NCBI RefSeq assembly: GCF_900444995.1
Contig: NZ_UAPQ01000001.1
Location: 682,001-746,000 of the forward strand
Direction: 5' to 3'
Length of the DNA stretch: 64,000 nt
Origin: Actinomyces bovis
GTDB lineage: Bacteria; Actinomycetota; Actinomycetes; Actinomycetales; Actinomycetaceae
Shown here in pieces: positions 1 to 37,814 of the stretch. The number at the start of each line of letters is the position of its first letter. Within the stretch, counting starts at the first letter, position 1. Under the pieces are notes generated by a model. The model made no database searches, was not told the origin of the DNA, and saw only the letters and a list, made by a program, of their open reading frames with translations. Made by a program: the position numbers and the translations under genes.

Positions 1-1324
1 CGGAAAGGATCCAGGAGACTGTGGCCTGGTCCACCGCCTGACTGCCAGCTAAAACAGTTCCGCTGGCGGGTTGTGGCAGGCCCAGGCGGGACAGTTCCAG
101 GGACGCGCGGTTGGCCCACAGATCGGCCAGGCGCTGAGTGTCACCGGTGGTGTCCCCTGGGAGTTTGAAGCCATCCAGCGCGTGGTCCACAGCGCGGCGG
201 GCAATGCGTTGGGCGGCGTATTCGGCGTAGCGGTCACGACCGGTGGACAGGGAGGCATAGCCGAAGGAGGACCAGGCGGTATCAGTAGGGTCTACGCCCC
301 AGCCCACCAGCTCACGGTTGGGGACCACGACCATATTCGCGATGTCATAGCTTACGAAGTCACGGAAGGCCGGTGAGGAAATGTACCGGGCTAGGCCGCG
401 CCCTATGCCCCGGAATACGCCTTCTGAGGTGCCGTCGCCGAAAACTGCGCCAGTGCCACCGGCCTTCAAACCTATAGGGGTAACGCGCTTGAAGGCCCGC
501 GGCGCGCGGTTGTTAAGGCCCAGAGAAGCATAGAGGGCCTCGTCCTGACTGGCGGTGGTGCCTGCGGCACCCGCCTGGGCAGCCACAATCTCCCCCAGCA
601 TGGCCAGGGTGTTGCCGGGCATGCCTGCGCGCAGGTGGGTGGGCACGGAGTTGAAGGCTTCGGCGGTGTAGAGGAATACGGAGATGTTTTGCGGGTCGAT
701 AGCTGGGGTGGTGTTAGCACCCGCTACCAGGCGGCAAACATCCAGGGTCATGGAGGCACCAGAGCCACCTGCCATGGAGGAAACCACCAGAACCATGGGA
801 GGCGCAGCGGTATCTGGGGCCGAGCCGACGCCAGGCACCGCGGCAGCGACTCTGGCTGCTTGCGCCTGGGACTCGGGTGAGGCCATGCGAGCCATGGCGG
901 CCTGCACCGCCCGGGAGACATCACTGATCTTGGTCAGCATTAGCAGGCGGCCGATACCCCGGAACTGGCCGGCACCCACGGTGACGGGGAAGGCGACGTC
1001 GCGTGGTGCTCGGGGCATCCAGGAAGCCAATTGCCGCAGCCCGTCTGGGGCACTGCGTTGCAGGTGCTCGGTGAGATACTGGTCAACGACGGCGTAATCG
1101 CCTGAGGCCACACCGCAAGCGACGTAGGCGCCGCCCTGTTTGCTTACAGATCCGACGGCCTTGCCCTCTTCCTCCTGCAGCGGGGTGTCCACGTTGAGGA
1201 ATTGCCAGCAACCTGGGATCTCCTTAATCCCATGGACCGCTAGGTCAGCACGCAACTGATCCATCATGTACGCCAAGGTCTTAGCACCTGAGCCGCCACA
1301 TCCAATTACGAGAACCTTGTACAT
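1..1324 (-). CDS. Tubulin-like GTPase-fold protein (Tubulin_2 type), 3' end cut by window edge
   Basis: An open frame of 441 codons runs from an ATG at 1324 off the left edge without a stop. The N-terminus reads MYKVLVIGCGGSGAKT, a glycine-rich nucleotide-binding loop. Near residue 188 is VVSSMAGGSGASMTLDVC, which resembles the GGGTGS tubulin/FtsZ signature in position and form. This combination is typical of the bacterial 'tubulin-like' family (Pfam Tubulin_2), which is distinct from FtsZ. Members are presumed cytoplasmic GTP-binding filament or scaffold proteins; the role here is unknown. It is the last visible gene of the minus-strand cluster, 60 bp after the VWA gene. A GGAAAGGA ribosome site lies about 10 bases before the ATG. 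Family call is fairly sure; polymerisation is not shown by the sequence. Confidence 0.8.
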   Translation of the reverse strand, partial: MYKVLVIGCGGSGAKTLAYMMDQLRADLAVHGIKEIPGCWQFLNVDTPLQEEEGKAVGSVSKQGGAYVACGVASGDYAVVDQYLTEHLQRSAPDGLRQLASWMPRAPRDVAFPVTVGAGQFRGIGRLLMLTKISDVSRAVQAAMARMASPESQAQAARVAAAVPGVGSAPDTAAPPMVLVVSSMAGGSGASMTLDVCRLVAGANTTPAIDPQNISVFLYTAEAFNSVPTHLRAGMPGNTLAMLGEIVAAQAGAAGTTASQDEALYASLGLNNRAPRAFKRVTPIGLKAGGTGAVFGDGTSEGVFRGIGRGLARYISSPAFRDFVSYDIANMVVVPNRELVGWGVDPTDTAWSSFGYASLSTGRDRYAEYAAQRIARRAVDHALDGFKLPGDTTGDTQRLADLWANRASLELSRLGLPQPASGTVLAGSQAVDQATVSWILS

Positions 1325-1384
1325 CTGCGCTTATTCCTTTCCGCCGCCTTAACGACGTCGCGACCTGTGGCCTGCGTGTTTTGG

Positions 1385-4216
1385 TCAGTTTGTCTGGTTT
1401 GGGCCAGTGGGCCAGCCGGAGGTGCCACCCCCAGCGAAGGGGCTAGGCATGGGGCCGCTGCCCGCAGCGAATGGGTTCGGGGTCGGGGCACTCGTACCCG
1501 CAGCGAAGGGGTTACCAGCAGGGATAGCTGCGCCCGAGGAGGCGCCGCCAGCGGAGCCAAAGGGGTTAGTAGGACCTTCAGGGCTGCCCGTCTGCTCTGG
1601 CGAATTCGGCTGTGGGAAGGCGTCCGCTACGGCCCGACCAAGGCGTTCTGCGGCATCGGCAGTGATGCGGTCGATGGCCTCCTGGTCGCCATAGGCCGAG
1701 AGCACCAGCAGGCTCACCCGTTTAGGTGAATCAAGCTGATCAGCAATAGCCATCCAGCTGCCGCGCACTGCCAGCGGGAGCGTGTCCCGGCCAGTGCTGG
1801 AGCCGTCAGGGCCGCCACAGACAGTCAGGGCCTCAGGCGACACCAAGCGCACGCGCGGCACAGAGGTGGGCGACCAGCCAAGACGTACTTGCAGGCGGTA
1901 ACCGTTTACATCGATCTGGCGAGAAGCTTTAGCCACAGAGCCACTTTGCAACTCCTGCGGCTGGAAGCTGATGCTGGCAGCGTGGCCTGGCTCAGGCACC
2001 TCCACTACCTTCACACCGCTGACCAGTGAACCTGCAGGAACGCGACCCGCCAGGAAACGGAAGAGGTAGAGCAGTACCACGGGGATAGCAACTCCGGCCA
2101 ACAGCACCAGCACGAAAGTGGACCAAGCCGTACCGACGTTCAGGGGACGCCGCATGTCAGCCGTGAAGGGGACCTCCACCTGCTGCGCCCGCTCCGGATG
2201 ATCCTTTGGCGCCACCGTCACCTTGAGCGCACCGGTGACAGCGCCGTTGGCGTGGTTGGTAGTGCTCAGCGTCAGGGGCAGGCTGCCAGTAGCAGCCTCA
2301 TCCACGCTCACGCAGGTGTCTGGGCTACTGGCCTGCGCGCTGACGGTGATGGTGCCAGCCTCAGCCGGGGCGCCTGTCAAGGTGACGTCCTTGGCCTCCA
2401 GCCACACGCAGCCAGGCCCCGTGACTGATAGGTCCATACTGGCTTGGTTCTGTTTCTCCAGCCTGCCAAAGTCTACCTTTTGACCCAGCACCGGGAAATC
2501 CAGTGGGGGGTTCACGGTGACGGGCACAGACGCGAGGGTGGGGGCCAGGGTGGTGCCCTCAATAGTCTTGCCGTTCGCCTTAACTGCAGCTGTGGTAACA
2601 GTGGCCGAGGTGATCACTGCGCCCTTACCTAGCGCGGCCTCGGCTGGCACCTGGAAGCTTTGCGGTTGACTGAGCTGGGACAAGTCCGTGGACTCAAGCA
2701 GTTTGTGTTGCGTGCCTTGCGAGTCTTCCAGCACGACGGCGTAGGTCACTGAGCCCTTCACTCGGGAAGCTTCCAGCGCAGCGCCGCCAGAACGCTCCAG
2801 CAACGCAATCTGCGCATTCTCTGTCTTCTCACCTTGCCTGAGCGTCACCTCTGCAAGGTTTTTCCAAGCTAGGGTCAGCGGCGAAGACAAGTGGGTATTG
2901 ATATGCACTTCTTGGCCCTGAGAGCCAGACTTTTTGTCTACGAAGGCTAGGCGCCACTGGCCGTCCCAAGTGGTGACGTCTTTAGCCGCTAAGTCAATCT
3001 GCAGCGTCTTATCTGTCAGCCACTCAGAGCGCACCCCCTGCTGGTTCTGTGCTCCTTTGGTCTCTGAGGGCAGAACCAGCGGAGAGCTCGCACCGGGTGC
3101 GATCAGTTGTGCTTCCAAGCCTGCAACATCGGCGGTAGCTAGAACGTGCACTTCAGGTAACGTGCCGTCCAGCACGAAGCTCGTCTCACCTTCTTCGCAG
3201 ACCTTGCCCTGGCAGATCTTGACCTGGCTCTGCGACACCTGTGACCCGGGGGCCGAGATGGAGTCGAAAGCGAGTAGTAGAGAGTCGATGTCAGCCACTT
3301 CATAGAAGGAGCCGCGAGGTTTGCTGACGCCACCGCAGGCCTCCACGCCAGTCTCGGCAGCCTGTACGCCGCCTCCGGAAACGACCCGACGCATCAAGCC
3401 AAAGTCTGCTCCACCGGTAGATAGACCAACGCCCAGGAGGGTGATGTTTGAGGAGCGCAACTGGTCCGCTAGACCGGTGGAGCGGCATAGGTCCTGGGTC
3501 CCCTGCTGCTCAGCGGCGGTCACCCCGGCCTCAGTGGTTAGGGAGGCGCCGGGCGCATATGGCTTGGTGGTGCCGAACTTGTCTTTGGCGGCATCGGTGT
3601 CGCGAAGGTCTAGGTCGAAGGCGCCATCAGAGAACCAGGTGATGGCCTTGCAACCACCGGCCGCGTGATCTGAGAGGTCCTGCCGGGCCCCTTCCAGTGC
3701 TGTCCAATAGTCGGTGTCATAGTCCTTGATATCGTCACCGACAGTGGTAATTGCGGACTCGACGGTGGGACGGGTGGAGTCGCTAAGCGTGGCCCAGTCC
3801 CCCTGCGGGGCGTAGTTGGCGGCAAAGCCAGCCACCCGCACGTCAAGCTTAAATCCGGTCCGCTTGGTGAACTCGTTGAGCCTCCCAGTGAGGTACTTAG
3901 CTGAAGTCACTCGGCTCTTGTGCGGGTCGGTGGTGTTCAAGGAACCGGACTGGTCCATGAGCAGGAGCAGGGACCCCTGGCCCTGGCCTGCCAGACAGGC
4001 ACCGAACTCGGCTAGGCCTGACTGGGCATTGGACTTTTGCTCATCAGCCTGCGATTGGGGACTCCACACAAGCAGGCTGCTGGCCATGATGCAGGTGGCA
4101 GAAAGGAGTCCCAGGAGGCGACGGCGTGCCTGGCGGCGGGTACGCCGTATAGCACTCTGAGACACCGCGGTGGGCTGGGTGCCCGTGCCGTTAACAAGGT
4201 GTCGCACTTGCCTCAC
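1385..4216 (-). CDS. Membrane-anchored von Willebrand factor A (VWA) domain protein with NPF-rich tail
   Basis: About 943 residues. A long basic N-terminus leads into a signal segment (residues about 33-57, ending SQADEQ). A VWA domain follows (about 80-290) with the metal-site motif DQSGS at about 88-92 and a later FSDG. Then come beta-rich repeats, one membrane helix at about 698-722 and a C-terminal, probably cytoplasmic, domain. The last 60 residues contain several NPF/SPF tripeptides. The GTG start at 4216 is chosen because it makes a 4-bp GTGA overlap with the preceding gene; GTG at 4207 is an alternative. An ATG further upstream (4405) would overlap that gene by about 190 bp and is unlikely. 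VWA domains bind protein partners through a metal ion and often work with MoxR ATPases; one is encoded in this cluster (30772-31737). The specific role is unknown. Confidence 0.85.
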   Translation of the reverse strand: MRQVRHLVNGTGTQPTAVSQSAIRRTRRQARRRLLGLLSATCIMASSLLVWSPQSQADEQKSNAQSGLAEFGACLAGQGQGSLLLLMDQSGSLNTTDPHKSRVTSAKYLTGRLNEFTKRTGFKLDVRVAGFAANYAPQGDWATLSDSTRPTVESAITTVGDDIKDYDTDYWTALEGARQDLSDHAAGGCKAITWFSDGAFDLDLRDTDAAKDKFGTTKPYAPGASLTTEAGVTAAEQQGTQDLCRSTGLADQLRSSNITLLGVGLSTGGADFGLMRRVVSGGGVQAAETGVEACGGVSKPRGSFYEVADIDSLLLAFDSISAPGSQVSQSQVKICQGKVCEEGETSFVLDGTLPEVHVLATADVAGLEAQLIAPGASSPLVLPSETKGAQNQQGVRSEWLTDKTLQIDLAAKDVTTWDGQWRLAFVDKKSGSQGQEVHINTHLSSPLTLAWKNLAEVTLRQGEKTENAQIALLERSGGAALEASRVKGSVTYAVVLEDSQGTQHKLLESTDLSQLSQPQSFQVPAEAALGKGAVITSATVTTAAVKANGKTIEGTTLAPTLASVPVTVNPPLDFPVLGQKVDFGRLEKQNQASMDLSVTGPGCVWLEAKDVTLTGAPAEAGTITVSAQASSPDTCVSVDEAATGSLPLTLSTTNHANGAVTGALKVTVAPKDHPERAQQVEVPFTADMRRPLNVGTAWSTFVLVLLAGVAIPVVLLYLFRFLAGRVPAGSLVSGVKVVEVPEPGHAASISFQPQELQSGSVAKASRQIDVNGYRLQVRLGWSPTSVPRVRLVSPEALTVCGGPDGSSTGRDTLPLAVRGSWMAIADQLDSPKRVSLLVLSAYGDQEAIDRITADAAERLGRAVADAFPQPNSPEQTGSPEGPTNPFGSAGGASSGAAIPAGNPFAAGTSAPTPNPFAAGSGPMPSPFAGGGTSGWPTGPNQTN

Positions 4217-4776
4217 ATCCTTCCGACGTACAGGGCAATGCGCGCTGCTGCTGCCACGACCGCCAGCAGAGCCACGACCACCGCAGCCCGGTATAACCAG
4301 TTGTGCCAACTGTTGCTTAAGTATCCGGGCGCTGCCTGGCGCCGCGCGTTGCGCACCAGGAACACGGCGGTTAGTCCGAGGCCTACCAGAGCCGCTAGTG
4401 CCCAAGCCAGAACGCTAATGCTGATTTCCTCAAACAGTCCAGCCAGCACCAGGCCGCCGATGGAAGCCGCCAACGAGCCGTACAGCAAGCCTGTGGGGGC
4501 GGTAACCGTAGTGAAGGCGCGGACGCTAGAACTCGTGGTACCGCCCCAAAGATCCCCTGTTGCCGCTGTCGCTACTGGTGCCGGAAAGGGTGAAGGGGAG
4601 GCAGTGGTTGAGATGCCAGGTGCCGGGGCGGGCGCGCTGGGCTGCGGCACAGCGGGCTGCAGCGTCGGGAACGAACCACCCAGGCCACCTGACGTGGGCT
4701 CTGTGGAACCGGGATTGCCGGTTGGTGCAGCACCCCACGGGCCGATCGGGGGAAGGGAGGAACCTGGCGTACTCAT
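4213..4776 (-). CDS. Small membrane protein with Pro-rich N-terminus, unknown function
   Basis: A 187-residue protein. Residues 1-75 are rich in Pro, Gly, Ala and Ser and look disordered. Three hydrophobic segments follow at about 96-115, 119-141 and 162-184, so it is an integral membrane protein. No family is recognised. It overlaps the VWA gene by 4 bp (GTGA), so the two are probably translated together and may form a membrane complex. One PSPF motif occurs in the N-terminal tail, similar to the SPF/NPF motifs of its two neighbours. Confidence 0.75.
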   Translation of the reverse strand: MSTPGSSLPPIGPWGAAPTGNPGSTEPTSGGLGGSFPTLQPAVPQPSAPAPAPGISTTASPSPFPAPVATAATGDLWGGTTSSSVRAFTTVTAPTGLLYGSLAASIGGLVLAGLFEEISISVLAWALAALVGLGLTAVFLVRNARRQAAPGYLSNSWHNWLYRAAVVVALLAVVAAAARIALYVGRM

Positions 4777-4859: not shown

Positions 4860-5654
4860 CTATGGGGTAGTTGTTGGTGTGGGGGCGGCTGGGTTGTTAG
4901 TTCCCTTGAGCTTGTTTAAGCCCTCTATGACCTGTTCGCGACCCGGCACCTTGATCCCGAAAGCCTCTAGGGCGTCATAGACCTTATTTACGTCCTGCGG
5001 CTCAATGCGGGCAGCGTAGTCGTCAACGCTGGCCACGGTCTGGGCTCCTAGCGCTTGGGCACCTTGATGAGTTCCCTCGGCAGCGGCTACGGCAGGGAGC
5101 ACCATCGCAGCGATGAACAGCAATGCTGGCACCAGCCTGGGACGGGAGCGCACTAAGCCAACTAGGGCGGTCACCGAGCCAACTAGCGCAAGGAGAGCGC
5201 CGAGTGCGAAGCCTCCCAGAGCTCCACCGTTCAATAGACCAGATTCCCCAAGTAGGACCGCGAAGATACGAATAGAGGCAAGCAACTGGTAGGAGGACCA
5301 GGCCAGGAGGACTACCGCGCAGATGGTCAGCAAGGCACCCGCCAGCACCGTACGGGAGCGCTGCTTCACCTTAGCCGGTACCAGACCAGATGGCGGCTGC
5401 ACCGGCAGCGGCTGCGGGGTGGGCGAGGTCTGTTGGGAAGGGTAGGGGGCCGGTAGGGCGGCTTGGAAGGGCGACGGCGTCGTCGCGGCAGACGCAAAAG
5501 GAGAGGCGGTGGGAGCCGCGGAACCTGGAGCGAGCTGCCGAGCAGTGTCCTGCCAACCTGGGGAACTGTATGCGTAAGCACTGCCAGATCGCCCCGACGA
5601 GCCATTGGCAGCGAACGGGGAACCCTCATGCTGACTGGGACCTGGGGGAAACAT
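4860..5654 (-). CDS. Membrane protein with SPF-rich Pro tail, unknown function
   Basis: About 264 residues from the ATG at 5654, which has a GGAAGG ribosome site five bases upstream; an in-frame ATG at 5753 gives an unlikely N-terminus and lacks such a site. Residues 1-95 are Pro/Ala/Ser-rich with repeated SPF tripeptides. Three hydrophobic segments follow at about 103-127, 143-168 and 174-194. The protein ends in a roughly 70-residue soluble segment (ASVDDYAARIEPQDVNKVYD...), probably extracellular. Family not recognised. The layout (disordered cytoplasmic tail plus a few helices) matches the next gene in the cluster, suggesting partner or related proteins. Confidence 0.75.
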   Translation of the reverse strand: MFPPGPSQHEGSPFAANGSSGRSGSAYAYSSPGWQDTARQLAPGSAAPTASPFASAATTPSPFQAALPAPYPSQQTSPTPQPLPVQPPSGLVPAKVKQRSRTVLAGALLTICAVVLLAWSSYQLLASIRIFAVLLGESGLLNGGALGGFALGALLALVGSVTALVGLVRSRPRLVPALLFIAAMVLPAVAAAEGTHQGAQALGAQTVASVDDYAARIEPQDVNKVYDALEAFGIKVPGREQVIEGLNKLKGTNNPAAPTPTTTP

Positions 5655-5785
5655 CTGTGCCTTCCAGTGGTCATGGCTGGCCTGACCACAGCGTCGGTGC
5701 CGTGAGGCGAGGGTTACACATCCGGCAGGATACGCGATGCCTGCATCCTTCACATGAAACTGAGCTTAACCGGTACCGGCAGCGG

Positions 5786-6538
5786 TCAGAAGGTGCTGTA
5801 CCGCTCTCGGGAGATGGTGAAACCGTGGCCGGTCTGCTGGTTCCAGCAGGTCAATCCCGTGGTCTGCGAAGTACAGGCGAAGACACCATTCTTGGCACTG
5901 GAACCGTAGTCAATCCGAGTCACTTGCTGGCCGGGTACGCCAAGGAACTGCTGTGCGCAAGCTAGCTGTGGAGCAGCGTCTCCCACGGTGATGGAGAAAT
6001 GTTGACTGTCACAGTCCTCTTGACCGTTTTCGGCGTACAGTCGCTCGAGAATCGAGCAAGAGACATCGTGTTCATGGAATTCACAAGAAATGTTCTGCGA
6101 GGGCGTGTCAATAAGTCTTGCACGCTTGGCACCTTCTGGCGCAGGACTTGCTAGCGCAGGCGTGGTCTCGACAGGAACAGATTTTGCCTTTTTATGCGAA
6201 GAGCCAGAGAACGCGTTAGAAGCCGCTAGGAAGCAGGAACGCGCGCCGAATAAGATCACTGCCACGATGAGCAAGGCTCCAATTAAGAGCACCCACTTAC
6301 GGGTGCGCGGCACCGGCTGCCCGGGCGACTCATGACTGGCCTGCTCCTCCTCCCACTGCTTCCTGATCCGATCGTTCTGACTCAAGATCCAGTTCCGCGT
6401 CGCTGGCGGACAGCTCGGGTTGTGAATCAACTCGACGTACAGCTCTGGGAAGTTATCGGCCAACTGGTCCAGCAACTCCGCAGGGGTAGCCGGGTCCTTT
6501 GCCAAACGGCGAGCTTCTTTAGGGTCTTGGATAAGCAT
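5786..6538 (-). CDS. LRV (variant leucine-rich repeat) membrane protein with six-Cys ectodomain
   Basis: About 250 residues from the ATG at 6538, which follows GGAGG by five bases. The N-terminal 60 residues (EARRLAKDPATPAELLDQ then NPSCPPATRNWIL) match the actinobacterial variant leucine-rich repeat module, presumably cytoplasmic. One membrane helix lies at about 82-105. The C-terminal domain (about 140-250) starts DTPSQNISCEF and ends TGHGFTISRERYSTF and has six cysteines at positions shared with the next gene, which suggests three disulfides outside the cell. It is a paralogue of 6621-7826. Function unknown; the topology would fit coupling an external domain to a cytoplasmic protein-binding module. 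Confidence 0.8.
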   Translation of the reverse strand: MLIQDPKEARRLAKDPATPAELLDQLADNFPELYVELIHNPSCPPATRNWILSQNDRIRKQWEEEQASHESPGQPVPRTRKWVLLIGALLIVAVILFGARSCFLAASNAFSGSSHKKAKSVPVETTPALASPAPEGAKRARLIDTPSQNISCEFHEHDVSCSILERLYAENGQEDCDSQHFSITVGDAAPQLACAQQFLGVPGQQVTRIDYGSSAKNGVFACTSQTTGLTCWNQQTGHGFTISRERYSTF

Positions 6539-6620: not shown

Positions 6621-7826
6621 TCAGAAGGTCTCATAGCCCTCGCGGGCAATCTTGAAGCCATGCCCCGTCCACTGGTTCCAGCAGGAGACGCCGGAGTTCT
6701 CCACCAGGCAGGCGTAGTTCTTGGATGCGGCGAACTGGTTGGCGGAAACCCGCTGCACGAACTGGCCCGGCGAACCCAAGAATGACTGCTCGCAAACCAG
6801 TGCTGGGGACTCGTTGCCAACAGAGATTGAGAACAGTCTGCCGGCGCAGTCAGGCTGACCGCTCTGGGCATATGAGCGCTCGGCGATAGAGCATGAGGCG
6901 GCGTAGTCGCTGAGTTCGCAGGAGATGTTCTGGGTCGGGGTGTCGAACAGTGCCGCATGGTAGGCGTTGTCCGGGGCTGGCCGGACTTTCCGCCCCGATG
7001 GCGTGCTGCTTGGGGTGGGTGTGGGTGAGGCGCTTGCAGGTTCCTTGGTGGCGGCCTGCTGGGGCGCCGCCTGTTCCGTGGCTGCCTGGTGGGTGGCCGG
7101 AGCATCAGCTGCCTGCTGGTTGGCTGCCTTGGCGTCGTCGCCGCCGCGCAGTTTGCTGCCCAGCAGGACGCCTCCCCCAGCCACCAGCAGCAGCACAGCC
7201 GCAATCGCGACCCACCGCCAAGCAGAGCCGTTTTGCTGTGGCGGCACGGGTTGAGGATTGACGGTGGTGACGACGCCGCCGAGCCCGCTGCTAGGCGCCG
7301 CTGTCCAGGCAGCGGCGGGCAACATTTCCCAACCACCCATGCTGGACGCCTCGGCGGTGGGCACCGTCAGCGGGTCCATTGCTGGCAGCACCGCAGTGTG
7401 GGGTGAGGGCTGCGTTGGATCCGGCATGGGGGCGTAGGCGGTGGCGCCGGACCAGGCCGTGGAATACGCAGCGGGGGTAGCTGCAAAGGCCGGTGAGCCC
7501 GCAGTAGGCCCGTTGTAGACGGCGGATGCGAGGTCGGCGGTCTCGGCTGTCGCTAGATCCGCAGTGGGCGCGGCCACCGGCGGGGTTGTCTGGGCAGGAG
7601 CCGCCGCGGGGCTGGAGGCGCTGGCCCCTAGGTGTGCCGCCTGCCAAGTTGCCAGAGCTTGCGGGTTGGCCTGCGCGATCCAGGAGCGGAGCCCAGAGGT
7701 GCAACTGGGGTTGAACAGCACGTCAAGGTGGAGCTCGGGGGAGGCTGCGGCAATCTCGTAAAGCCGCTGCACGGAGGTGGCCGGATCGCGCGCCTCAAAG
7801 GACTTAAGGGTGTTTTGCGAGCTCAT
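6621..7826 (-). CDS. LRV (variant leucine-rich repeat) membrane protein, longer paralogue
   Basis: A 401-residue paralogue of the neighbouring gene. An LRV module at residues 1-65 (SFEARDPATSVQRLYEIAA, FNPSCTSGLRSWI) is followed by a long Ala/Pro/Thr-rich linker, a membrane helix at about 203-225, a Gln/Ala/Thr-rich stalk and a C-terminal domain (about 295-401). That domain begins DTPTQNISCEL and ends TGHGFKIAREGYETF, with the same six cysteines. The start at 7826 has an AGGGAAG site upstream. Tandem duplication is evident at the protein level in both terminal domains, but the linkers differ greatly in length. Function not established. Confidence 0.8.
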   Translation of the reverse strand: MSSQNTLKSFEARDPATSVQRLYEIAAASPELHLDVLFNPSCTSGLRSWIAQANPQALATWQAAHLGASASSPAAAPAQTTPPVAAPTADLATAETADLASAVYNGPTAGSPAFAATPAAYSTAWSGATAYAPMPDPTQPSPHTAVLPAMDPLTVPTAEASSMGGWEMLPAAAWTAAPSSGLGGVVTTVNPQPVPPQQNGSAWRWVAIAAVLLLVAGGGVLLGSKLRGGDDAKAANQQAADAPATHQAATEQAAPQQAATKEPASASPTPTPSSTPSGRKVRPAPDNAYHAALFDTPTQNISCELSDYAASCSIAERSYAQSGQPDCAGRLFSISVGNESPALVCEQSFLGSPGQFVQRVSANQFAASKNYACLVENSGVSCWNQWTGHGFKIAREGYETF

Positions 7827-7973: not shown

Positions 7974-7992
7974 TCATTGGGGCCCTTGTGCG

Positions 7993-10866: not shown

Positions 10867-10964
10867 TCCACGACGTCGACGACAAGCACGGTTATGTTGT
10901 CATAACCGCCAGCCTCAAGCGCCAACTTGGAAGCCTGATCGCCAAAACGGTGACCGCCCATGCC
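10867..10964 (-). pseudogene. Decayed remnant of a PP2C phosphatase gene (internal deletion)
   Basis: On the minus strand this encodes GMGGHRFGDQASKLAL joined directly to EAGGYDNITVLVVDVVE, then a stop a few codons later. The intact PP2C gene of this cluster (24825-25712) has the same two segments about 170 residues apart. The DNA differs at only about six of 98 positions. The join lies at a short shared sequence (GCCA), consistent with deletion of about 0.5 kb from a second copy. An in-frame TAG lies eight codons before the GMGG motif, so no working phosphatase can be made. Confidence 0.85.
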
Positions 10965-11022
10965 CCAGCACCACGAAGCGTCCTATGAGCCTGGTGCCTC
11001 AGTGGAGGGTGGACAAAACACA

Positions 11023-11058: not shown

Positions 11059-11073
11059 CGCAGTTGCTGCAGG

Positions 11074-12692: not shown

Positions 12693-12723
12693 CACAGAGC
12701 CTTTCTATTCGGCAAATCGAGGA

Positions 12724-29397: not shown

Positions 29398-30743
29398 AGG
29401 GCCGCCCTCCGCATGGTCTGAGGCAGGGCCTCCAAGGCACCAAGTGTGAACAAGCGCAGCCCGCCAACCTGCGTGGAGCTAAGCGCTGCGTCCTTCTCGA
29501 TCCGTAGCCCAATGGAGTAGGCAGTAGAGGGCAGTTCGCAGTGAGCCCGGTGCAGTTGGACCGCAGGTAAAGCGGCGCCAGTGACCAAGGTGACCACCGA
29601 GGCCTGCGGTACATCTCTGGAGGCCTGGCGCGCCAGAACACTGAGGTCGTTGGTGGTGCGGAGCTGCTCCAACCGGGTGATGGCGTCCAAAGCTCGCATG
29701 GCATTGGGCGCCACAGGCATGCCCGCCTGGGTCACCAGGCTCACTTCACGACCGGCGCGGTAGGCGGCAAGCACCAGGGAGGCGGCGCAAGACACGCCAG
29801 TCTCAAACTCATCTGCGCTGCGCCAGGCCTCGGTATCGAGGTCTAGCACCACCAGCAGATGGGCGCGGCGGGTTTCCTCGAATTGGCGCACCATGAGGCG
29901 GCCGGTGCGGGCGGTGGAGCGCCAGTGGACGTTGCGGCGGTCATCACCTGGTGTGTAGTCACGCAGGGCGTGGAAGGCGACGTCGGAGGAGGACAGCTCC
30001 TGGGTTACGGCGCCCTCATTATCTCGGATGAAGCCGATGGCCTCGGCGTCGATAGTGGTGGTGCGAGGGTGAACAAAAAGCTCCACCGGCTCATTCCAAC
30101 GCTGCTTTCGGCGCAGTAGACCGAGGGGGTCACCGCGCACTGAAGTCACTGGGCCGACGACGATTACGCCGCGTCGGCGCGTGGGGATAGTGAAGACCTC
30201 TTGGTGGCTGGTCTTGCCCGCCAGCCGGGGCACATTGAACACCGCCAGACCGGTGCCCACCGGCAGCTCCACGCTGGCACTGCCAACGCCGCGCGAGGAG
30301 GGATTGCTCAGACGCACCTCACCGAATGCCGCCTCCCCCACGATGACCCGGTTGGCAGCCAGGGACACACCGACGTCGTAGGAGCGTCTGCCGATCACGG
30401 TGGGCAGAGCTAGCAGCAGCATGGTGGCAAGCACCAGGGAAAGGGCCCAGGCTTCCTGCCAGTGGCAGGCAAGGGCCGTGGGCAAGGCGAGCAACAGGGC
30501 TAGCAGGCTCCAACGTCCCAGAGGGGTGATTACGTCACCCACGCGCTCCAGCCAGCGCAGCACCGGACCGGCCACGGGGTTGGCCGCTGCTGTCTGCCTA
30601 AGCGCAGCAACTTGCTGCGCTAGGCGACTCCTCAACACGTTCAGGCGACTGCGTGCCACCGTCTTGAACTGGGAAAGCCAGTTGAGCCGCGCTACGCGTA
30701 TGCGGCGTGGCGGCGTGGGATGGTTGTTGCTCTGCTTGGCCAT
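29394..30743 (-). CDS. DUF58 membrane protein (VWA-like)
   Basis: 449 residues. A basic N-terminus and two membrane helices at about 78-125 are followed by a beta-rich region and the DUF58 signature ALRDYTPGDDRRNVHWRS (about 256-275). DUF58 proteins contain a VWA-like fold and pair with MoxR ATPases, one of which is encoded 28 bp upstream. The stop overlaps the next start (ATGA). The family's biochemical role is still unclear; assembly or maturation of envelope proteins is the common proposal. Confidence 0.93.
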   Translation of the reverse strand: MAKQSNNHPTPPRRIRVARLNWLSQFKTVARSRLNVLRSRLAQQVAALRQTAAANPVAGPVLRWLERVGDVITPLGRWSLLALLLALPTALACHWQEAWALSLVLATMLLLALPTVIGRRSYDVGVSLAANRVIVGEAAFGEVRLSNPSSRGVGSASVELPVGTGLAVFNVPRLAGKTSHQEVFTIPTRRRGVIVVGPVTSVRGDPLGLLRRKQRWNEPVELFVHPRTTTIDAEAIGFIRDNEGAVTQELSSSDVAFHALRDYTPGDDRRNVHWRSTARTGRLMVRQFEETRRAHLLVVLDLDTEAWRSADEFETGVSCAASLVLAAYRAGREVSLVTQAGMPVAPNAMRALDAITRLEQLRTTNDLSVLARQASRDVPQASVVTLVTGAALPAVQLHRAHCELPSTAYSIGLRIEKDAALSSTQVGGLRLFTLGALEALPQTMRRAAL

Positions 30744-30771: not shown

Positions 30772-31737
30772 TCAGGCGCGGTTCTGTGGGGCCGGCACCT
30801 CAGCGATGGCCTGAGCTACGACGTCACGGGCGGTGTTGCCGGCGAACTCGGCGTCGGGGTCCATAACCAGGCGGTGCGCCCAGACCACCTCAGCCAGGTC
30901 TTTGACGTCTGAGGGCAGGACATAGGGGCGGCCTTGGGCGGCAGCCCAGACTTTGGCGGCCCGAGTCATGCCGATGGCGCCGCGGGTGGACACGCCAATG
31001 CGAGTCTGGGCGGATTCGCGGGTGGCACGGGCGAGCTGCGCAATATAGGCCAGCACGGAACGCTCCACGTGATTCTCGGCAGCTAGGTCCGCCATGGAGG
31101 CGACGGCGTGGGAGGCGATCACTGCCCCTAGCTGCTTGGAGCGGTCCGGGGCGGCTGAACCTGCGAGCACCTCAATGAAAGCTTCTTCTTCCGGGTAGCC
31201 GATGGAGGTTTTCATTAAGAAGCGGTCCAACTGGGCTTCGGGGAGCTTGTAAGTACCGGCCTGCTCCACCGGGTTCTGCGTAGCGATCACCATGAACGGC
31301 CGGCCCGCCTCATGGCGCACCCCATCGACGGTCACCTTGGACTCCTCCATGACCTCCAGCAGCGCTGACTGGGTCTTAGGCGAAGCCCGGTTAATCTCAT
31401 CAGCCAACACAATGGAGGCAAACACCGGACCGGGGTGGAAGTCCCAAGAGCCGGTCTTTTGGTCATAAATGGTCACACCCGTGATGTCTGAGGGCAGCAG
31501 GTCAGGGGTGAACTGGATACGCGAATGACTCCCCTGCACCGTGGCCGCCAAAGCGCGGGCTAAGGCGGTTTTACCGGTGCCGGGGGCGTCTTCCAACAGC
31601 AGGTGGCCTTCAGCCAGCATGGTGGTCAGCGCCAAACGGATGATATCCGTCTTGCCCAGCAACGCCAAACCAACATTGTCAACAATACGGGAGAAGGTGT
31701 CAGCGAACCAGGTCGCGTTCTCCTGGGTCATAGGCAT
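30772..31737 (-). CDS. MoxR-type AAA+ ATPase
   Basis: 321 residues, typical MoxR length. Walker A EDAPGTGKTALARA (about 49-62), Walker B IVLADEINRASPKTQ (about 110-124), sensor and pore region ATQNPVEQAGTYKLPEAQLD (about 151-170). MoxR proteins act as chaperone-like ATPases on VWA-containing partners; here the DUF58 protein and the VWA protein at 1385-4216 are candidates. The ribosome site is weak; ATG at 31731 is an alternative start. Confidence 0.95.
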   Translation of the reverse strand: MPMTQENATWFADTFSRIVDNVGLALLGKTDIIRLALTTMLAEGHLLLEDAPGTGKTALARALAATVQGSHSRIQFTPDLLPSDITGVTIYDQKTGSWDFHPGPVFASIVLADEINRASPKTQSALLEVMEESKVTVDGVRHEAGRPFMVIATQNPVEQAGTYKLPEAQLDRFLMKTSIGYPEEEAFIEVLAGSAAPDRSKQLGAVIASHAVASMADLAAENHVERSVLAYIAQLARATRESAQTRIGVSTRGAIGMTRAAKVWAAAQGRPYVLPSDVKDLAEVVWAHRLVMDPDAEFAGNTARDVVAQAIAEVPAPQNRA

Positions 31738-31787: not shown

Positions 31788-34700
31788 CTATCTGCAGGTG
31801 AACCAGTTCTCACCCACGAAGTCCGAGGAGTCCATGCTCATGAGTCTGCCCTTCCAGTAGCCGTCCCAGTTGGGCTCGCCGTGATAGTTGCCGTTGCCGT
31901 CCACGGGCACGGTGGTGCTCTCCTGATGCCCGGCCCAGTCGCCACTGCAGGTCACGTTGGTATTGGGGGGCCAGCCCTGCAGGTCCACCCCGACCCTCCA
32001 GGCCTTGCGTCCGCTGCAGGCGCCAAAGCTACAGGTCATGTATGCACCTTTGAAGGTGCCGACCTTCCTCGGGTAGCTGGGGGCGGTGGCGCTGGCGCAC
32101 CTGGAGCCGGACCCGAGCTCGGAGGCCGCTACGTTCTGCCCCGGCCGTACCGCGTAGACGCAGAGCTTGCCGGTCCCGCCCTCACCCACGTTGAAGGTTC
32201 TCTCCCCGGAGTCCTGCAGGCCGATCCGCTCAATGGAGCCGTTGGCGTCAACCTCCAGTTCGGAGGTGGCGCCTCCGTCCTTCGCCCCGCTCCAACTGCA
32301 CCGTACCTGCCCCACAGCGCCTGCAGCGCAGCTCACTGCCGGGGAGGTGGGCGGCTCATAGGGGGTGACCGAGCCGACTGTGGCGGCCTGGGAGCAGACG
32401 GTGGAGCCAGTCTTGGTGCCGCAAGCCCGCACGGAGATGGAAGCGGCACTGCCGATGGCCAGCCCGTTGCCGGTCAGGTCATTCATCCCCTTCCATTCGC
32501 TGCCGTTCGCCGACCACTGGACCGTCAGGTCGGAGGCACTCCAGCCATTGCCCTCCTTGGCGGTGGCGGTCAGATTGATGGATGCGCCCTGCCCGGTGGC
32601 TTGCAGTCCGCTGCCGCTGGGAGTCGGCGGCAGGCCCACCACCCAGGCGGAGGTGCTGGTTTCAGCCGAGGTGTGTGTCGCGGGTGCCGCAGTGTCATTG
32701 GTAGCGGTGATCTTGAAAACCACCTGACTGTTGGAGGTGTTCACAGACTCGATTGTCGTGGAGGTAGCACTCTCCACCCGTTTGGAGCCGCCCGGCCAGC
32801 TCAGCGTGTAATAGGCAATATCCCGCCCATTGCCGCCCGCAGCAGTCCAGGAGACATTCACCCGGTCACTGCTGCCACCGGTCCCTAGTGAAGCAGCCTG
32901 TGCCTGCAGCTGAGGCACAGCTTCAGGACGGCCATAGGGGGTCACTGCCTTGGAGGCGCCGGAAATCTTGCTGGTGCCCTTCTTGTTGGTGGCGGTCACG
33001 GTGGCGGTGTAGGCGGCGCCGTTCCTCAGCCCAGTGAAGGTGGCGGAGGTGGTGGTGACCGTCTGTTCTTTCACGCCGTCGGGGCCGGAGAGGTACACGG
33101 TGTAGCCGCTGATCGCCGAGCCCTCATTTTCTGGGGCGGTCCAGTTGAAGGTGGCTTGGTTGTCTCCGGGCGTGCCAGTGGGGGCGGTAACCACCCCCGG
33201 CACCACATCAATATTGGTGGTGGCACTTGCGGAGGCGGGAGAGTCCCCCACCCCGTTCGTGGCGACGACGTGGAAGGTGTGGTCCACACCGTTCTTACGG
33301 CTCTCGATCAGACAGGTGGTGACCTGCCCGCAGGCTTTGGAATCGCCCTGAGTCTCATCAAAGACCGTGAAGCCGCTGATCGGGTCGCCATTCGCTGCGC
33401 CAGCGGACCAGGTGACTGTGGCTGTGCCCGCGGCCGCAGAGGAGGCGGTGACCGCAGTGGGCGCGGCGGGCTTGTCCTTAACCGTCACCTGCACGCTGCC
33501 TTCCACTTCACGTGCGGGATCGTTGGTCTTGTCCCCCAAGCGGAAAGCGACGGTGGTGGTGCCATTGGTTCCCGCCGGTGGCGTGATGCCCAGCTTGGTG
33601 CCCTCCACGGTCACACTGCCAGCGTCTGAAGCCGTAGGAGTGCCCACAACATGTAGCGGCGTATCCGGGAAGGGGTTGGAAGCGGACTGGGCTAAGTCCA
33701 CGCTGACGGTCTTACCGGCGTTGGTGGTCACTGAGATCGGCGAGACCTGGATCCGTTCCTTAGTAGAAGCCACCACAGAAACTTGAGCGGTGCCCGTGGC
33801 GGTGGCACCACCAGCGTCCTTGACCGTGACATTTACTTGGCCCGCTGAGCCTTGCTTGGTGGTGGCATCGGCATTCACAGACAAGGTGGTGCCACTTAGC
33901 GAGGCACTAGCACCGTTGAGTGAGGGCTCGATTGAGTAGGTCATGGAGGAGGGCTCTTCACCGTCAGGATCAGTCACCCATTTGCTCACATCCACCGTCA
34001 CAGCGGCGTCGCCTGCAGCCACCTCAATATTGGTGGGAGTGATAGTGGGCGCTTGGTTGCCTGCTGGCAGCACGGTAATTGGCAGGGTTAGGCTGGCTAC
34101 TCGCCCATCAGAGTCATTGAGGTCCTTGCCATCAGTGACTTCAAAGGTTACTGAGCTGGGGCCGGAGTAGTCCTTGGCCGCCCCAAAGCTCAAGGTAGTG
34201 GCGTCCTTGACCAGCGGAGTGCCGTCCCAGCCCAGCGAGGCAGAAACCTTGGCGGCGTCCGTCAGTTGCACGGAGTGGCCCTCACGGGTGATCACGTAGT
34301 CCGCCAGCGGAATACTTACGCTCTCCCCAGCTTTAACCTGCAACTCCTGGGCTTTGGTCGCATTGATCTCAGGCCCACTGACTTTGGAGCCGGGAACAAA
34401 GACGACGGCGGAGGCAGTCAAGCCATCTGGATCAGTCAAGGTGTAAAGCACATACCGTGCGGTCTCGTTGACCGGGATGGTCAAGGTGCCACCACTGACG
34501 CTCACACCTTCATCCGTGGTGGTCAGCTCGTCGGAGTGGACGTCGCCGTCAGGATCGCTGTCGTTGTCCAGCACGTTCACGCTGACAGCACTGGAATTTG
34601 CGGTGTCTGCGGTCGCCACAATGTCATCCCTCGCAATGGGGGCAAGCAATGGCGCATCGGCAGAGACCACAACTGTCAACAAGCCGGTCACTGGCTCAGA

Positions 34701-37700
34701 GCGGGAATCGGTCAGGCCGTACTGGACGGTGTAGGTCCCTTCAGCCGCCGGAGTGGTTAGGACGATGCTCTTGCCGCGCGGCTCCACCACCAGTGTGGGG
34801 TCGGAGGAAGAGACTAGGCCTGGCACCAATTCCAGAGGATCGCCGTCTGGGTCCACGTCGTTGCCCAAAACTGGCACGCTCACGTTCTTCCCGGGCCGCA
34901 CGTTTACCTGGTCAGGAACGGCTACTGGACGCTGGTTGGTGGTGGCAGCAGCAGCTACACCCACGCGCACCGTAGCGGTGGCGCTCTTCCCCAGCCTGTC
35001 CTTAACCGTGTAGGTGAACACGTCTGTGCCCGAGGACTTCTGGCCTGCCGTGTACTTCAGGCTGTTTTCATCTACCTCCACGGTGCCTAACTTTGGTGAG
35101 GAGGACACTCCTACCAGGGTCACGGAGTCACCCTCAGAGTCAATACCGGTCAGGGGCACGGGAATCTTCACGGTCTGTCCCGCCACGGCCCAGCCAGTGA
35201 CGTCCTTGGGATGAGGCGCCGTATTCGTGTCCTCATCCAAGGCCACAACGCTCACCGTGACCTGCGCGGAGGCGATATTCCCAGCAGCGTCGTGCACCGT
35301 GTAAACCAGGGTTCCGGTGCCGGGCTTGTCACCGGCCCGCACCCGGACTACGCCGTCGGATACGAAGGGGCTGGCAGTTGCTGCAGCGAAGGTGTGTTGA
35401 AGCTTGTCGTCAACGGTTAGCTTGAGACCGGCTGGGGAACGGTCGTTATCCAGAACGTTCACAGATCCGACGTCGCCCACGCGCACCACCAGGTTGTCGT
35501 CCGTGAGCACCGGGGGTTCTGTTGCAGACACCGGTGGGGCCGGAATGACCATGACTTGGCCCACCGAGGTACCTGCACCATTAGCCACCGTGTAGGTAAG
35601 TTGTTGGGTAGACGTCAAGCCACCCGGTGCGGTGATTCGCAGGATGTGGTGCTCTAGCAGCGCCACCACCAGCGGGGAGCCCTCAGGAAGGTGCACAGAC
35701 TGCGCCACCAGCACGCCACCGGCTGGATCGGAGTCATTGGCCAACACGTCTACTAGGGCCTCACCTCCGGCGGGCAAAGTGGTCACGTCATCCTGCGCCA
35801 CCGGCAGGCCCTGAGAATCGGCAGCCACCACGTCCACGCGAATGAAGCCGGTGGTAGCTGCCGGGCCATCGGTGACTTTGTATTCCAGGTAGTAGGTGCC
35901 CACGGTTTGCCCGGTCACGGAGACAATTGAGAGGTCTGGGTCCAGGCTGGCGCTAATGCCAGTGGTGGGTTGGGAGATGGAAGCGACCCGCAGGGTGTCC
36001 CCGTTGGCGTCGGTGTCATTTGCCCGGGGGTCGAGTTGTGCGGTCTGGCCTTGTGCCACCACCAGGTGGTCACCGTTGGCCACGGGGGCGATGTTCTCTG
36101 CACCGCGCACGTCAATCCGCAGTTGCCCTTCAGTGGTCTTTTTGCCATCAGAGTAGGTAACGGTGAGTTCTTTGATCCCGGTGCCTTGACCCAGGTCATG
36201 CACGGTCACGGTGCCATCCGCGCGCCAGCTCACATCCAGCCCAGCGGGAAAGGCCACCGATTCCAGATAGACGGCGTCACCGTCAGGATCGATCCAGTCC
36301 CCGGAAACATTGGTAGTACCGCGGGCCCCCTGCCCCAGGATCATGGTGGAGATACGGGTCTGCTTGGGGCCCTCGTTTACCTCCCATGGATGCACGGTCA
36401 ACGTGACGTTGGCGGTATCAGTGCTGCCGCCGTCGGAAAGCTCATAAACAAAGCTGCTGGTGCCGGTGGCCTCCGCTTTGATGCGCGCCTGCAGGGCAGC
36501 GCCGTCACGTACCTGCACCACTTCACCGAGTTCCGGTTGGGTAATGGGCTTAGCGACGAGCACATCGCCGTCAGGATCGGTGTCATTGCTGATCACTGGC
36601 AGGCTAACTGAACGCCCTGGGCGCACCCCGAACTCGTCGTCGATGGCGTCAGGTGGGGTGTTTTCATCGCGCCGCTCAGCTGGGGACTCCTGGTCGGTGC
36701 GGGTAGTGTCGTCCTGCTTCTCATCGTCCTTCTTGAGATCAGAGTTGATCTGGTCCCAGTTGTCGACCTTGACCATGTCCTCGTCAGGCAGCCAGATACC
36801 ACCGTCTTGGGTGTTGTTCAGGACGATTACTCCGCGGTTCATGCGGAAGACGGCGGTGTCCGCTGCATTGAGGTCTGCCCGGTCCTCGTTGCGGTCGTCG
36901 GCGTCATTGGTGCAGTCGCGCAGGTAACCGCCTTGGCCGCTCCAGGCGGAGTAGACGCAGGAGCGCATCCGGGCTGGCCGCGCGGGTTTGCCGCCGGGGC
37001 TGTGCTTGGGCACCGGCGTGACCTTGCCCGCTCGGTCCACGCGCAGCAGCGCCTCAGAAGAAGCCACGAGGACTTCCTCAGAGTCGGGTCCGGGCACCTG
37101 CAGCTGCAGTTCGGTGCCATTCAGCTTCGCGGTGGAGCCGTCTTGGCGTATAAGGGTTCCCGAAGCGCGATCCAGGACCACCGTCTGTTTGCCGACTGCG
37201 GATACCTGTAGGTCCGCGTTGGCTCCCAACTCCGGTAGCGCGGTGGTGGTTTGGTCCTGCTGGCTGCCTGCCGGGGTGATGGTGGTGATTCGCTTGGTCT
37301 CTGGGGAGACGATGTGGGCGGTGCCCTCCAAGCCCATGGCGAGGACGGCGCCCTTCTCGTCCCGGAGAATCGGTTCAGTGACGGTAGGCTCAAAAGTGCT
37401 CTGTTGCGAGGCTGGCATGACCCAGATTGAGCCGCTGGTGGGGTCTGCGATTCCCAGGCGGTCTCCACCAAGCTGCATATTGTCGGCGTTTTGCACTGGG
37501 GAGAGCAGGACGTTCTTAGCCACGTCCACTTGGGTGAAGGCGCCGGATTCGTGGTCGGCTACATAGACGGTGCCAGCTTCCTGGGAGACGTCGAATTTGG
37601 CCGAGGCGGCGCGCAGCCCGCCGTCGATGACATGCGCCGGGTAGTTGAGGTGGCCCACAGCGCGCAGGTTCTGGTTGGTGACCCAGACTCCGCCGTCGTG

Positions 37701-37814
37701 CAGATCAATCTCGCGGATCACCACGCCGGGGTGCAGCAGAGCCATGACGACGGCTCCCGCCGATAGCGTCCCCGCCACACTGGCGGCAATACGTCGCAGC
37801 GGCATAAAGCTCAT
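31788..37814 (-). CDS. Giant Ig/cadherin-like and fibronectin-III repeat surface protein
   Basis: About 2008 residues from the ATG at 37814, which has AGGAG seven bases upstream; upstream in-frame codons lack such a site. An N-terminal signal or anchor segment (about 1-30) precedes a beta-propeller-like region (about 30-330) and an acidic linker. About nine tandem Ig/cadherin-like repeats follow, marked by calcium-type motifs such as NDTDPDGD, NDVDPDGD and NDSDPDGD. Three fibronectin-III domains (about 1450-1725) and a Cys-containing C-terminal region complete it. No sortase motif or C-terminal membrane segment is seen. It is the first gene after rpoC and matches the Fn3 gene of the bifidobacterial PFNA cluster, proposed there to contact host factors. 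Adhesion is a reasonable inference. Confidence 0.9.
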   Translation of the reverse strand: MSFMPLRRIAASVAGTLSAGAVVMALLHPGVVIREIDLHDGGVWVTNQNLRAVGHLNYPAHVIDGGLRAASAKFDVSQEAGTVYVADHESGAFTQVDVAKNVLLSPVQNADNMQLGGDRLGIADPTSGSIWVMPASQQSTFEPTVTEPILRDEKGAVLAMGLEGTAHIVSPETKRITTITPAGSQQDQTTTALPELGANADLQVSAVGKQTVVLDRASGTLIRQDGSTAKLNGTELQLQVPGPDSEEVLVASSEALLRVDRAGKVTPVPKHSPGGKPARPARMRSCVYSAWSGQGGYLRDCTNDADDRNEDRADLNAADTAVFRMNRGVIVLNNTQDGGIWLPDEDMVKVDNWDQINSDLKKDDEKQDDTTRTDQESPAERRDENTPPDAIDDEFGVRPGRSVSLPVISNDTDPDGDVLVAKPITQPELGEVVQVRDGAALQARIKAEATGTSSFVYELSDGGSTDTANVTLTVHPWEVNEGPKQTRISTMILGQGARGTTNVSGDWIDPDGDAVYLESVAFPAGLDVSWRADGTVTVHDLGQGTGIKELTVTYSDGKKTTEGQLRIDVRGAENIAPVANGDHLVVAQGQTAQLDPRANDTDANGDTLRVASISQPTTGISASLDPDLSIVSVTGQTVGTYYLEYKVTDGPAATTGFIRVDVVAADSQGLPVAQDDVTTLPAGGEALVDVLANDSDPAGGVLVAQSVHLPEGSPLVVALLEHHILRITAPGGLTSTQQLTYTVANGAGTSVGQVMVIPAPPVSATEPPVLTDDNLVVRVGDVGSVNVLDNDRSPAGLKLTVDDKLQHTFAAATASPFVSDGVVRVRAGDKPGTGTLVYTVHDAAGNIASAQVTVSVVALDEDTNTAPHPKDVTGWAVAGQTVKIPVPLTGIDSEGDSVTLVGVSSSPKLGTVEVDENSLKYTAGQKSSGTDVFTYTVKDRLGKSATATVRVGVAAAATTNQRPVAVPDQVNVRPGKNVSVPVLGNDVDPDGDPLELVPGLVSSSDPTLVVEPRGKSIVLTTPAAEGTYTVQYGLTDSRSEPVTGLLTVVVSADAPLLAPIARDDIVATADTANSSAVSVNVLDNDSDPDGDVHSDELTTTDEGVSVSGGTLTIPVNETARYVLYTLTDPDGLTASAVVFVPGSKVSGPEINATKAQELQVKAGESVSIPLADYVITREGHSVQLTDAAKVSASLGWDGTPLVKDATTLSFGAAKDYSGPSSVTFEVTDGKDLNDSDGRVASLTLPITVLPAGNQAPTITPTNIEVAAGDAAVTVDVSKWVTDPDGEEPSSMTYSIEPSLNGASASLSGTTLSVNADATTKQGSAGQVNVTVKDAGGATATGTAQVSVVASTKERIQVSPISVTTNAGKTVSVDLAQSASNPFPDTPLHVVGTPTASDAGSVTVEGTKLGITPPAGTNGTTTVAFRLGDKTNDPAREVEGSVQVTVKDKPAAPTAVTASSAAAGTATVTWSAGAANGDPISGFTVFDETQGDSKACGQVTTCLIESRKNGVDHTFHVVATNGVGDSPASASATTNIDVVPGVVTAPTGTPGDNQATFNWTAPENEGSAISGYTVYLSGPDGVKEQTVTTTSATFTGLRNGAAYTATVTATNKKGTSKISGASKAVTPYGRPEAVPQLQAQAASLGTGGSSDRVNVSWTAAGGNGRDIAYYTLSWPGGSKRVESATSTTIESVNTSNSQVVFKITATNDTAAPATHTSAETSTSAWVVGLPPTPSGSGLQATGQGASINLTATAKEGNGWSASDLTVQWSANGSEWKGMNDLTGNGLAIGSAASISVRACGTKTGSTVCSQAATVGSVTPYEPPTSPAVSCAAGAVGQVRCSWSGAKDGGATSELEVDANGSIERIGLQDSGERTFNVGEGGTGKLCVYAVRPGQNVAASELGSGSRCASATAPSYPRKVGTFKGAYMTCSFGACSGRKAWRVGVDLQGWPPNTNVTCSGDWAGHQESTTVPVDGNGNYHGEPNWDGYWKGRLMSMDSSDFVGENWFTCR

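Follow-up and report, generated by a model that had tools for sequence, protein, structure and literature searches.

Two described systems are among the closest to the locus analysed here. The first is T7SSd, the type VII secretion subtype named by Garrett, Higginson and Palmer in 2024 (PMC11217815), for which the available text of that paper reports no ubiquitin-like protein. The second is the PFNA gene set, which is stated to occur in bifidobacteria only (PMC10688814) and to which kinase signalling and cytokine binding have been ascribed (PMC8430577), as far as the accessible parts of these papers go. In a stretch of 64,000 nucleotides from Actinomyces bovis (C2:682001-746000 in a 2.6 Mb genome; hereafter the window, meaning the whole of this stretch), we find a PFNA-type set joined to an export ATPase and a WXG100 gene. 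We put at about 0.6 the probability that window positions 11074-37814 encode a phospho-regulated type VII-like export system, export itself being inferred. The system is related to T7SSd, with an ATPase that appears to form another clade. The reading builds on the gene set, its overlapping junctions, a linkage conserved in other genomes and the predicted order of the ATPase, which runs from a ubiquitin-like domain through an FHA domain and membrane segments to FtsK domains.

The whole cluster is about 50 kb long and occupies the entire interval between rpoC and rpsL. rpoC itself (38036..42046; identified by translation, with a match at 89% identity in the congener G083) forms the upstream boundary, and the cluster genes lie directly behind it, all on the minus strand like rpoC. 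Their content divides into two modules, the first at 11074-37814 and the second made up of VWA, tubulin-like, GAP1 and DO-GTPase genes reaching up to rpsL. The first module opens with a giant Ig/Fn3 protein (31788..37814; 2008 aa from the ATG at 37814) with Pfam matches to Big_9 (11 stretches), fn3 (2 stretches) and cadherin, and a hydrophobic segment at its N-terminus in the hydropathy profile. It is followed by a MoxR-type AAA+ ATPase (30772..31737; AAA_3, E 1.7e-61), a DUF58 membrane protein with 2 hydrophobic segments (29394..30743; Pfam), a TgpA-like transglutaminase-fold membrane protein (TGM) with 6 such segments (26950..29397; TgpA_N and Transglut_core), a protein combining an RDD membrane domain with an FHA domain (25709..26953; RDD above the Pfam cut-off, FHA below it, with the motifs GR, SxxH and STNG), and, both assigned by Pfam, a PP2C phosphatase (24825..25712) and an FHA protein (23200..24828). 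Then come a Ser/Thr kinase (21498..23207; Pkinase, HRD and DFG motifs, one transmembrane [TM] segment by hydropathy and a short C-terminal part after it), an FHA-wHTH adaptor (20728..21516) and the EssC/TsdC-like ATPase (16256..20731). The adaptor matches no Pfam family above cut-off: its wHTH part scores E 0.02, below the cut-off, and its FHA-like part, which has no Pfam match and lacks the usual phospho-binding motifs, was assigned from its sequence. In the ATPase, Pfam, AlphaFold and fold searches place a predicted ubiquitin-like domain at residues 1-102 and an FHA domain at 112-210, followed by hydrophobic segments at 254-295 and FtsK domains (PF01580, FtsK_SpoIIIE, E 5e-50, 2 stretches).

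The junctions from DUF58 through TGM, RDD-FHA and PP2C to FHA each overlap by 4 nt. FHA and kinase overlap by 8 nt, kinase and FHA-wHTH by 19 nt (4 nt with a later ATG as start), and FHA-wHTH and ATPase by 4 nt. The initial annotation of this DNA had listed the genes on one strand directly behind rpoC, with overlapping junctions from DUF58 to the ATPase, and had likened the first part to PFNA by content. All of these statements hold: the listed families score above the Pfam cut-off for most genes (VWA and the FHA part of RDD-FHA fall below it), and kinase, fn3, MoxR, DUF58 and TGM are all present. It had also failed to recognise canonical EccB/D/E, mycosin or EsaA/EssA/EssB, and our Pfam scans of the cluster genes agree.

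The PFNA-type genes are conserved as one unit with the export ATPase. Among named ATPase loci (the best 80 of 541, with flanks of up to 10 kb), eight PFNA-type genes were scored by tblastn at E 1e-4 and at least 45 bits. At least three of the eight stand beside the ATPase in 70/80 loci, one or two in 4/80 and none in 6/80; where more than 9 kb was present on both sides, the proportion with at least three rises to 48/49. Judged in the same way, 20 control stretches, each 10-20 kb long, include none that passes. In 58 named loci the FHA-wHTH gene precedes the ATPase by no more than 400 nt, overlapping it in 29 (28 by exactly 4 nt) and falling within 30 nt in 40. Full or near-full orthologues of the ATPase, some fragmented, occur in 17 of the 121 family genomes. 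Of the 14 family relatives that were mapped (G041 and G113 lie outside this set), 8 have PFNA genes next to the ATPase, as do 7 of 8 loci mapped elsewhere in the order; the named loci and the mapped genomes overlap, with at least Georgenia, Oerskovia, Buchananella and Okibacterium in both. Hosts among the best 80 of 541 include Actinomyces oricola (67% identity at the best segment), Schaalia, Arthrobacter, Microbacterium, Agreia, Cellulosimicrobium, Brachybacterium and Nocardioides. Many of the host genera are soil or plant bacteria.

Two side observations concern the distribution of the cluster. The surroundings of rpoC are reused, the ATPase cluster lying near rpoC or rpsL in Plantibacter, Okibacterium and Cryobacterium (L221, L222, L258, G378). 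A record named Sporosarcina (Bacillota; L237) holds a copy resembling that of Arthrobacter and is likely a contamination.

Downstream of the ATPase lie two candidate substrates of 645 aa (14166..16103, proposed from its position) and 480 aa (12724..14166), two small proteins that may be chaperones, judging by position and size (12063..12695, 210 aa, and 11503..12066; no Pfam hit for either), and a WXG100 protein of 96 aa (11074..11367; Pfam E 1.1e-13). The "WXG-type substrates" of the initial annotation are thus upheld for the 96-aa gene, the only one of the three with a Pfam hit over cut-off, and not for the genes at 14166-16103 and 12724-14166. A profile built up from the WXG100 gene of the window detects a WXG-like gene within 6 kb downstream of the ATPase in 48 of 58 loci; on the upstream side, 1 of 68 has one. 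The 645-aa protein is matched in 2 of the 80 named loci. The 480-aa protein is homologous (E 9e-8) to a 519-aa neighbour of the bifidobacterial T7SSd-like ATPase, and both carry the motif W..IG..DPVPGDP at the N-terminus. A looser form, N-terminal W..(I/V/L)G..DPxPGDP, is shared by candidate substrates of both ATPase clades (window, G196, G067, G114 and G043).

Residues 1-102 of the ATPase are predicted to adopt a beta-grasp fold (strands 2-8 and 14-20, helix 27-36, strands 51-56, 78-80 and 97-102) before the FHA domain. A fold search with a model of both domains returned a list filled with FHA chains, and the ubiquitin-like domain was therefore modelled alone (mean pLDDT 83). The lone domain matched talin (score 9.5), plexin (9.1), Rad60 SLD2 (8.9), the ESX-3 core complex chain 6sgw_B (8.7; rmsd 2.5, 75 aligned), ESX-5 7b9s (8.5), the EccD5 domain 7b7j (8.2) and the EccD1 domain 4kv2 (8.0), the 6sgw_B and 7b9s chains being assumed to be EccD from their length and range. 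In Foldseek, where the best match reached E 1e-3, nearly all of the 50 matches listed are ubiquitin-like. YukD is the Pfam family matched by most members of this ATPase type, yet by only 5 of 36 at E <=1, and a YukD model run over the 121 genomes matched one related ATPase frame in its N-terminal part (G113 C19, E 0.003). FHA-type ATPases of other clades start with a similar pattern, with weak YukD or ubiquitin-like hits in 4 of 5; the N-terminus of the bifidobacterial one gave only an SLBB hit, also weak. The glycine-arginine, serine, histidine and asparagine-glycine positions of the FHA domain are retained in 36 of 36 rows. Actinobacterial YukD is described as always fused to a membrane domain (Iyer et al. 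2006, PMC1779556, in its available text). We propose that a ubiquitin-like part is fused to this ATPase, a proposal that stands firmly as a predicted fold in the window type and more weakly in bifidobacteria. The weaker ubiquitin-like signs in bifidobacterial T7SSd-type ATPases may account for the ubiquitin-like part reported as missing from T7SSd.

These components suggest a mechanism. The kinase, opposed by PP2C, would phosphorylate partners that are bound by the FHA domains of the ATPase and of the RDD-FHA and FHA proteins. MoxR and DUF58 would act as assembly chaperones; bifidobacterial Pkb2 phosphorylates the PFNA MoxR protein, according to the accessible part of PMC8430577, consistent with assembly being under the control of the kinase. 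Membrane parts would be supplied by the TgpA-like and RDD-FHA proteins, while the fused ubiquitin-like domain of the ATPase would substitute for EsaB/YukD or the EccD cytosolic domain. The ATPase would export the WXG100 protein and the 480- and 645-aa candidate substrates, and the Ig/Fn3 protein of about 2,000 aa might span the wall as a conduit or target-contact arm, a role that has been proposed for TsdI.

Several observations weigh against an export system of this kind, and three other explanations compete with it. At the ATPase N-terminus, the ubiquitin-like match is generic, with talin and plexin domains outscoring EccD domains. The match to YukD in a comparison of profiles is weak (20%, against 0.5 and 0.7 for the controls), the window's own N-terminal domain alone matches no Pfam family, and the YukD model run over the 121 genomes did not reach the window ATPase. 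Among the candidate chaperones, the 210-aa protein has no detectable homology to the 206-aa bifidobacterial protein in a like position (E 4). The linkage also has gaps: in 6 of the 14 mapped family relatives the ATPase has no nearby PFNA genes, one of the 6 retaining PP2C. Conversely, the FHA-wHTH marker occurs in 39 of the 121 family genomes and only 11 of these 39 have the ATPase (Fisher p 0.004 for association; this and the Fisher values below ignore the relatedness of the genomes), and the congener G112 has a PFNA set at 42-81% identity with the ATPase absent from the 34 kb read, a read that excludes the far side of the IgFn3 gene.

Genomes with PFNA and without this ATPase are many, and PFNA could be an independent envelope sensing or adhesion operon. 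The ATPase would then be either an optional passenger or a motor that assembles the giant protein, and there would be no WXG100-type export machine. The published roles in kinase signalling and cytokine binding (PMC8430577, available text) would sit well with this. Against it stand the tight and widespread overlap of the FHA-wHTH and ATPase genes and the WXG-like gene that 48 of 58 loci have next to the ATPase, and we regard it as unlikely. A second PFNA set in the window genome lies on contig C9 (L302-L303); its MoxR is 85% identical, its kinase and FHA genes are on the opposite strand, it is common to G083, and no ATPase lies within the 40 kb read.

The system might also simply be T7SSd. Our anchor for that subtype is the FHA-type ATPase of G196 (family f3), an assignment that rests on gene content and on the G196 phosphoketolase, which is very close to 3ahc and 3ai7, proteins we take to be from Bifidobacterium. 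The G196 locus encodes WXG, kinase, a 147-aa one-TM protein, a 1775-1798-aa protein, ATPase, FHA, WXG and proteins of 206 and 519 aa, a gene list that is T7SSd content; G359 has matches for the same ATPase, kinase, WXG and substrate. With this content the window shares a kinase, an FHA-bearing ATPase, WXG100, a giant Ig-like protein and the homologous 480/519-aa substrate. The two ATPases are about 30% identical, but the window type forms its own clade apart from the f3 T7SSd-like ATPase (27 rows, support 100, branch 1.63) in a quick tree that carries a long-branch warning, whose rows are stop-to-stop frames that may include upstream residues, and which was built without EccC, fam_L024 and named TsdC. 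The giant Ig/Fn3 protein, moreover, has no detectable homology to bifidobacterial TsdI (E 0.45), a point that also counts against our own reading. No candidate for TsdH, a one-TM small protein, was recognised among the cluster genes, where no homology search was aimed at it, and MoxR, DUF58 and TgpA lie outside the T7SSd core in the available text of PMC11217815. Plain identity with T7SSd therefore seems improbable to us. In G196, a PFNA set lies just behind rpoC on the opposite strand with the T7SSd-like locus about 13 kb further, and the distance from TGM to the ATPase is about 32 kb in G248 and G359.

The second module most likely constitutes a separate GAP1-N2 tubulin system. At its junction with the first module lies a PP2C remnant with an internal deletion (10867..10977; 93% and 88% DNA identity to 24946-25004 and 25515-25574). 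Next come a membrane protein (7993..10764; homologue in the G083 module, hydropathy) whose gene contains TGGFP-type repeats at about 9030-9310, an LRV protein (6621..7826; LRV_2, with LRV-protein matches beside the tubulin module in G010 and G067), an LRV/DUF6636-like protein (5786..6538; LRV_2, with DUF6636 below cut-off), a membrane protein (4860..5753; homologue in the G083 module), a small membrane protein placed here by position (4213..4776; hydropathy), a VWA membrane protein (1385..4216; VWA_2 at 21.7 bits, below the cut-off of 27; 55% identity in G083) and the N-terminal part of a 1193-aa tubulin-like protein (1..1324; 61% in G083; Tubulin_2 E 7e-42 for the whole protein, which is mostly outside the window). 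The tubulin operon runs about 10 kb past the window edge, through a membrane protein, a 776-aa protein, GAP1-N2/GAP1-M, a 296-aa protein and a DO-GTPase2-like protein, to rpsL, rpsG, fusA and tuf. GAP1-N2 matches at E 1e-15, GAP1-M and Tubulin_2 are over the Pfam cut-off, and DO-GTPase2, like VWA_2, is under it. The GAP1-N2, GTPase, tubulin and vWA genes stand together in this module, and their order is kept in G083, G010 and G021.

The third explanation, built on a suggestion of the initial annotation, is one larger machine in which PFNA, the export ATPase and the VWA/tubulin/GAP1 genes act together. The part that joins PFNA to the ATPase is sustained by the 70 of 80 loci; tubulin and VWA as a general part are not. 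In G083 the tubulin module stands alone at the same site, its rpoC-rpsL interval holding VWA, tubulin-like, TM929, P776, GAP1, P296, DO-GTPase and TM947, with neither the PFNA set nor the ATPase in the 40 kb read. Tubulin-module genes are absent from all 80 named loci. Since VWA and ATPase are 12 kb apart in the window itself, the 21 wider maps around window-type ATPases, most of which extend 15-40 kb on a side, are a fairer test than 10-kb flanks. Family genomes supply 13 of these maps (3-40 kb to one side, 16-36 kb to the other) and genomes elsewhere in the order supply 8 (mostly about 20 kb a side); none of six tubulin-module genes was found in any of the 21 (tblastn, at least 45 bits). Among the maps made, the tubulin module adjoins a type VII ATPase in this window only.

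Whether the two halves occur independently in relatives and never together, the outcome that the initial annotation had named as refuting its view, receives a mixed answer. In an order sample of 297 genomes, in which two first-look candidates were scored per genome and the ATPase type was called at more than 700 bits, 18 have the tubulin-like protein, 87 the window-type ATPase and only the window genome both (Fisher p 0.03). Within the family, GAP1-N2 was found in 5 of 121 genomes, and 3 of these 5 also have the ATPase, vs 17 of 121 overall (Fisher p 0.02). In G010 and G067, where GAP1-N2 and the ATPase are at separate loci, the tubulin module is directly followed by IgFn3, MoxR, DUF58 and TGM. 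These last two findings also run counter to the division that we draw. Together with the placement of all genes on one strand between rpoC and rpsL, they are what speaks for a single machine; on G083, the 21 maps, the 80 loci and the order co-occurrence we nevertheless reject the idea that the tubulin module regularly belongs to the export system, the family count of 3/5 standing against that rejection, and consider a joint machine improbable.

Other features of the window and its genome were also recorded. Promoter and terminator scans gave counts close to the shuffled expectation, except for terminator-like sites in 3900-20800 (17 vs 11.7 expected from shuffling, sd 3.9), and Rfam at gathering threshold gave one tRNA only, at 57783-57855. 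Contig C12 (L012:2454-17963) carries a T7SSa-like locus with EccC, EccD (YukD domain), DUF6177, WXG100-like and DUF6507 proteins, mycosin being absent among the nine proteins scanned. This locus has its own EccC, so that the window ATPase need not serve an ESX system, the other way in which the initial annotation could have failed. On contig C8 (L010:7801-19901, L011:1-2022), a Tad-type pilus operon (T2SSE, T2SSF, TadE) is followed directly by a further EssC-like ATPase (1579 aa); Tad-linked type VII systems, T7SSg and T7SSh, are described in Bacillota in the available text of Garrett et al. (PMC11217815).

Within the library searched, no work joins PFNA with type VII secretion and one paper names T7SSd; searches on type VII with MoxR, DUF58, transglutaminase, Arthrobacter or Microbacterium left the system undescribed among the matches listed. 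The main text of the T7SSd paper (PMC11217815), supplements aside and as far as available, does not mention Arthrobacter, Microbacterium, Actinomyces, MoxR, transglutaminase or fibronectin. The locus brings together two literatures without a common paper in that library and gives the PFNA proteins a testable mechanism, and the presence of PFNA beside an export motor in many other actinobacteria suggests that it belongs to a little-known secretion machine. We consider the chances evenly balanced that the locus represents one more type VII subtype, distributed across Actinomycetales and Propionibacteriales, whose ATPase has fused ubiquitin-like and FHA domains and is coupled both to control by kinase and phosphatase and to an envelope module of the PFNA kind. 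In that case bifidobacterial PFNA, which has been interpreted as a device for host cytokines, would be related to or derived from a secretion-associated module older than host use, and the ubiquitin-like component reported as missing from T7SSd would lie at the N-terminus of its ATPase.

Compared with known systems, the genes of the second module, namely VWA, tubulin-like, GAP1 and DO-GTPase, resemble the GAP1-N2 tubulin systems (Kaur et al. 2020, PMC7159879) and the FtsZl1/vWA systems (Makarova and Koonin 2010, PMC2875224), for neither of which the available text describes a link to a type VII ATPase. With T7SSa/ESX and T7SSb, the first module shares an EccC/EssC-type ATPase and WXG100; membership of either is rejected, no EccB/D/E, mycosin or EsaA/EssA/EssB being recognised among the cluster genes, and the only kinase of the cluster is a full Pkinase match with HRD and DFG, unlike the EssB pseudokinase. 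T7SSd, as far as its published text is available, has in common with it an FHA-bearing FtsK-type ATPase, a membrane kinase, WXG100, a giant Ig-like protein and a related substrate. It differs in that TsdH was not recognised in the window and the giant protein is not TsdI-homologous by sequence, and in that the window system has an ATPase of a separate clade in the quick tree with a predicted, fused ubiquitin-like part, and adds MoxR, DUF58, TgpA, RDD-FHA, PP2C and FHA-wHTH. To bifidobacterial PFNA, again in the accessible text (PMC8430577, PMC10688814), the likeness extends to the kinase, a protein of about 2,000 aa with two fn3 domains, MoxR, DUF58, a transglutaminase-like protein, a phosphatase and FHA. 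Homologues in G196 follow the published order, pkb2-fn3-aaa-duf58-tgm-prpC-x-fha, at 29-52% identity, whereas the window keeps fn3-MoxR-DUF58-TGM and has its kinase after PP2C and FHA. The printed claim that PFNA is confined to bifidobacteria does not hold on these data: the window set is joined to an export ATPase and WXG100, and it occurs in many other actinobacterial families.

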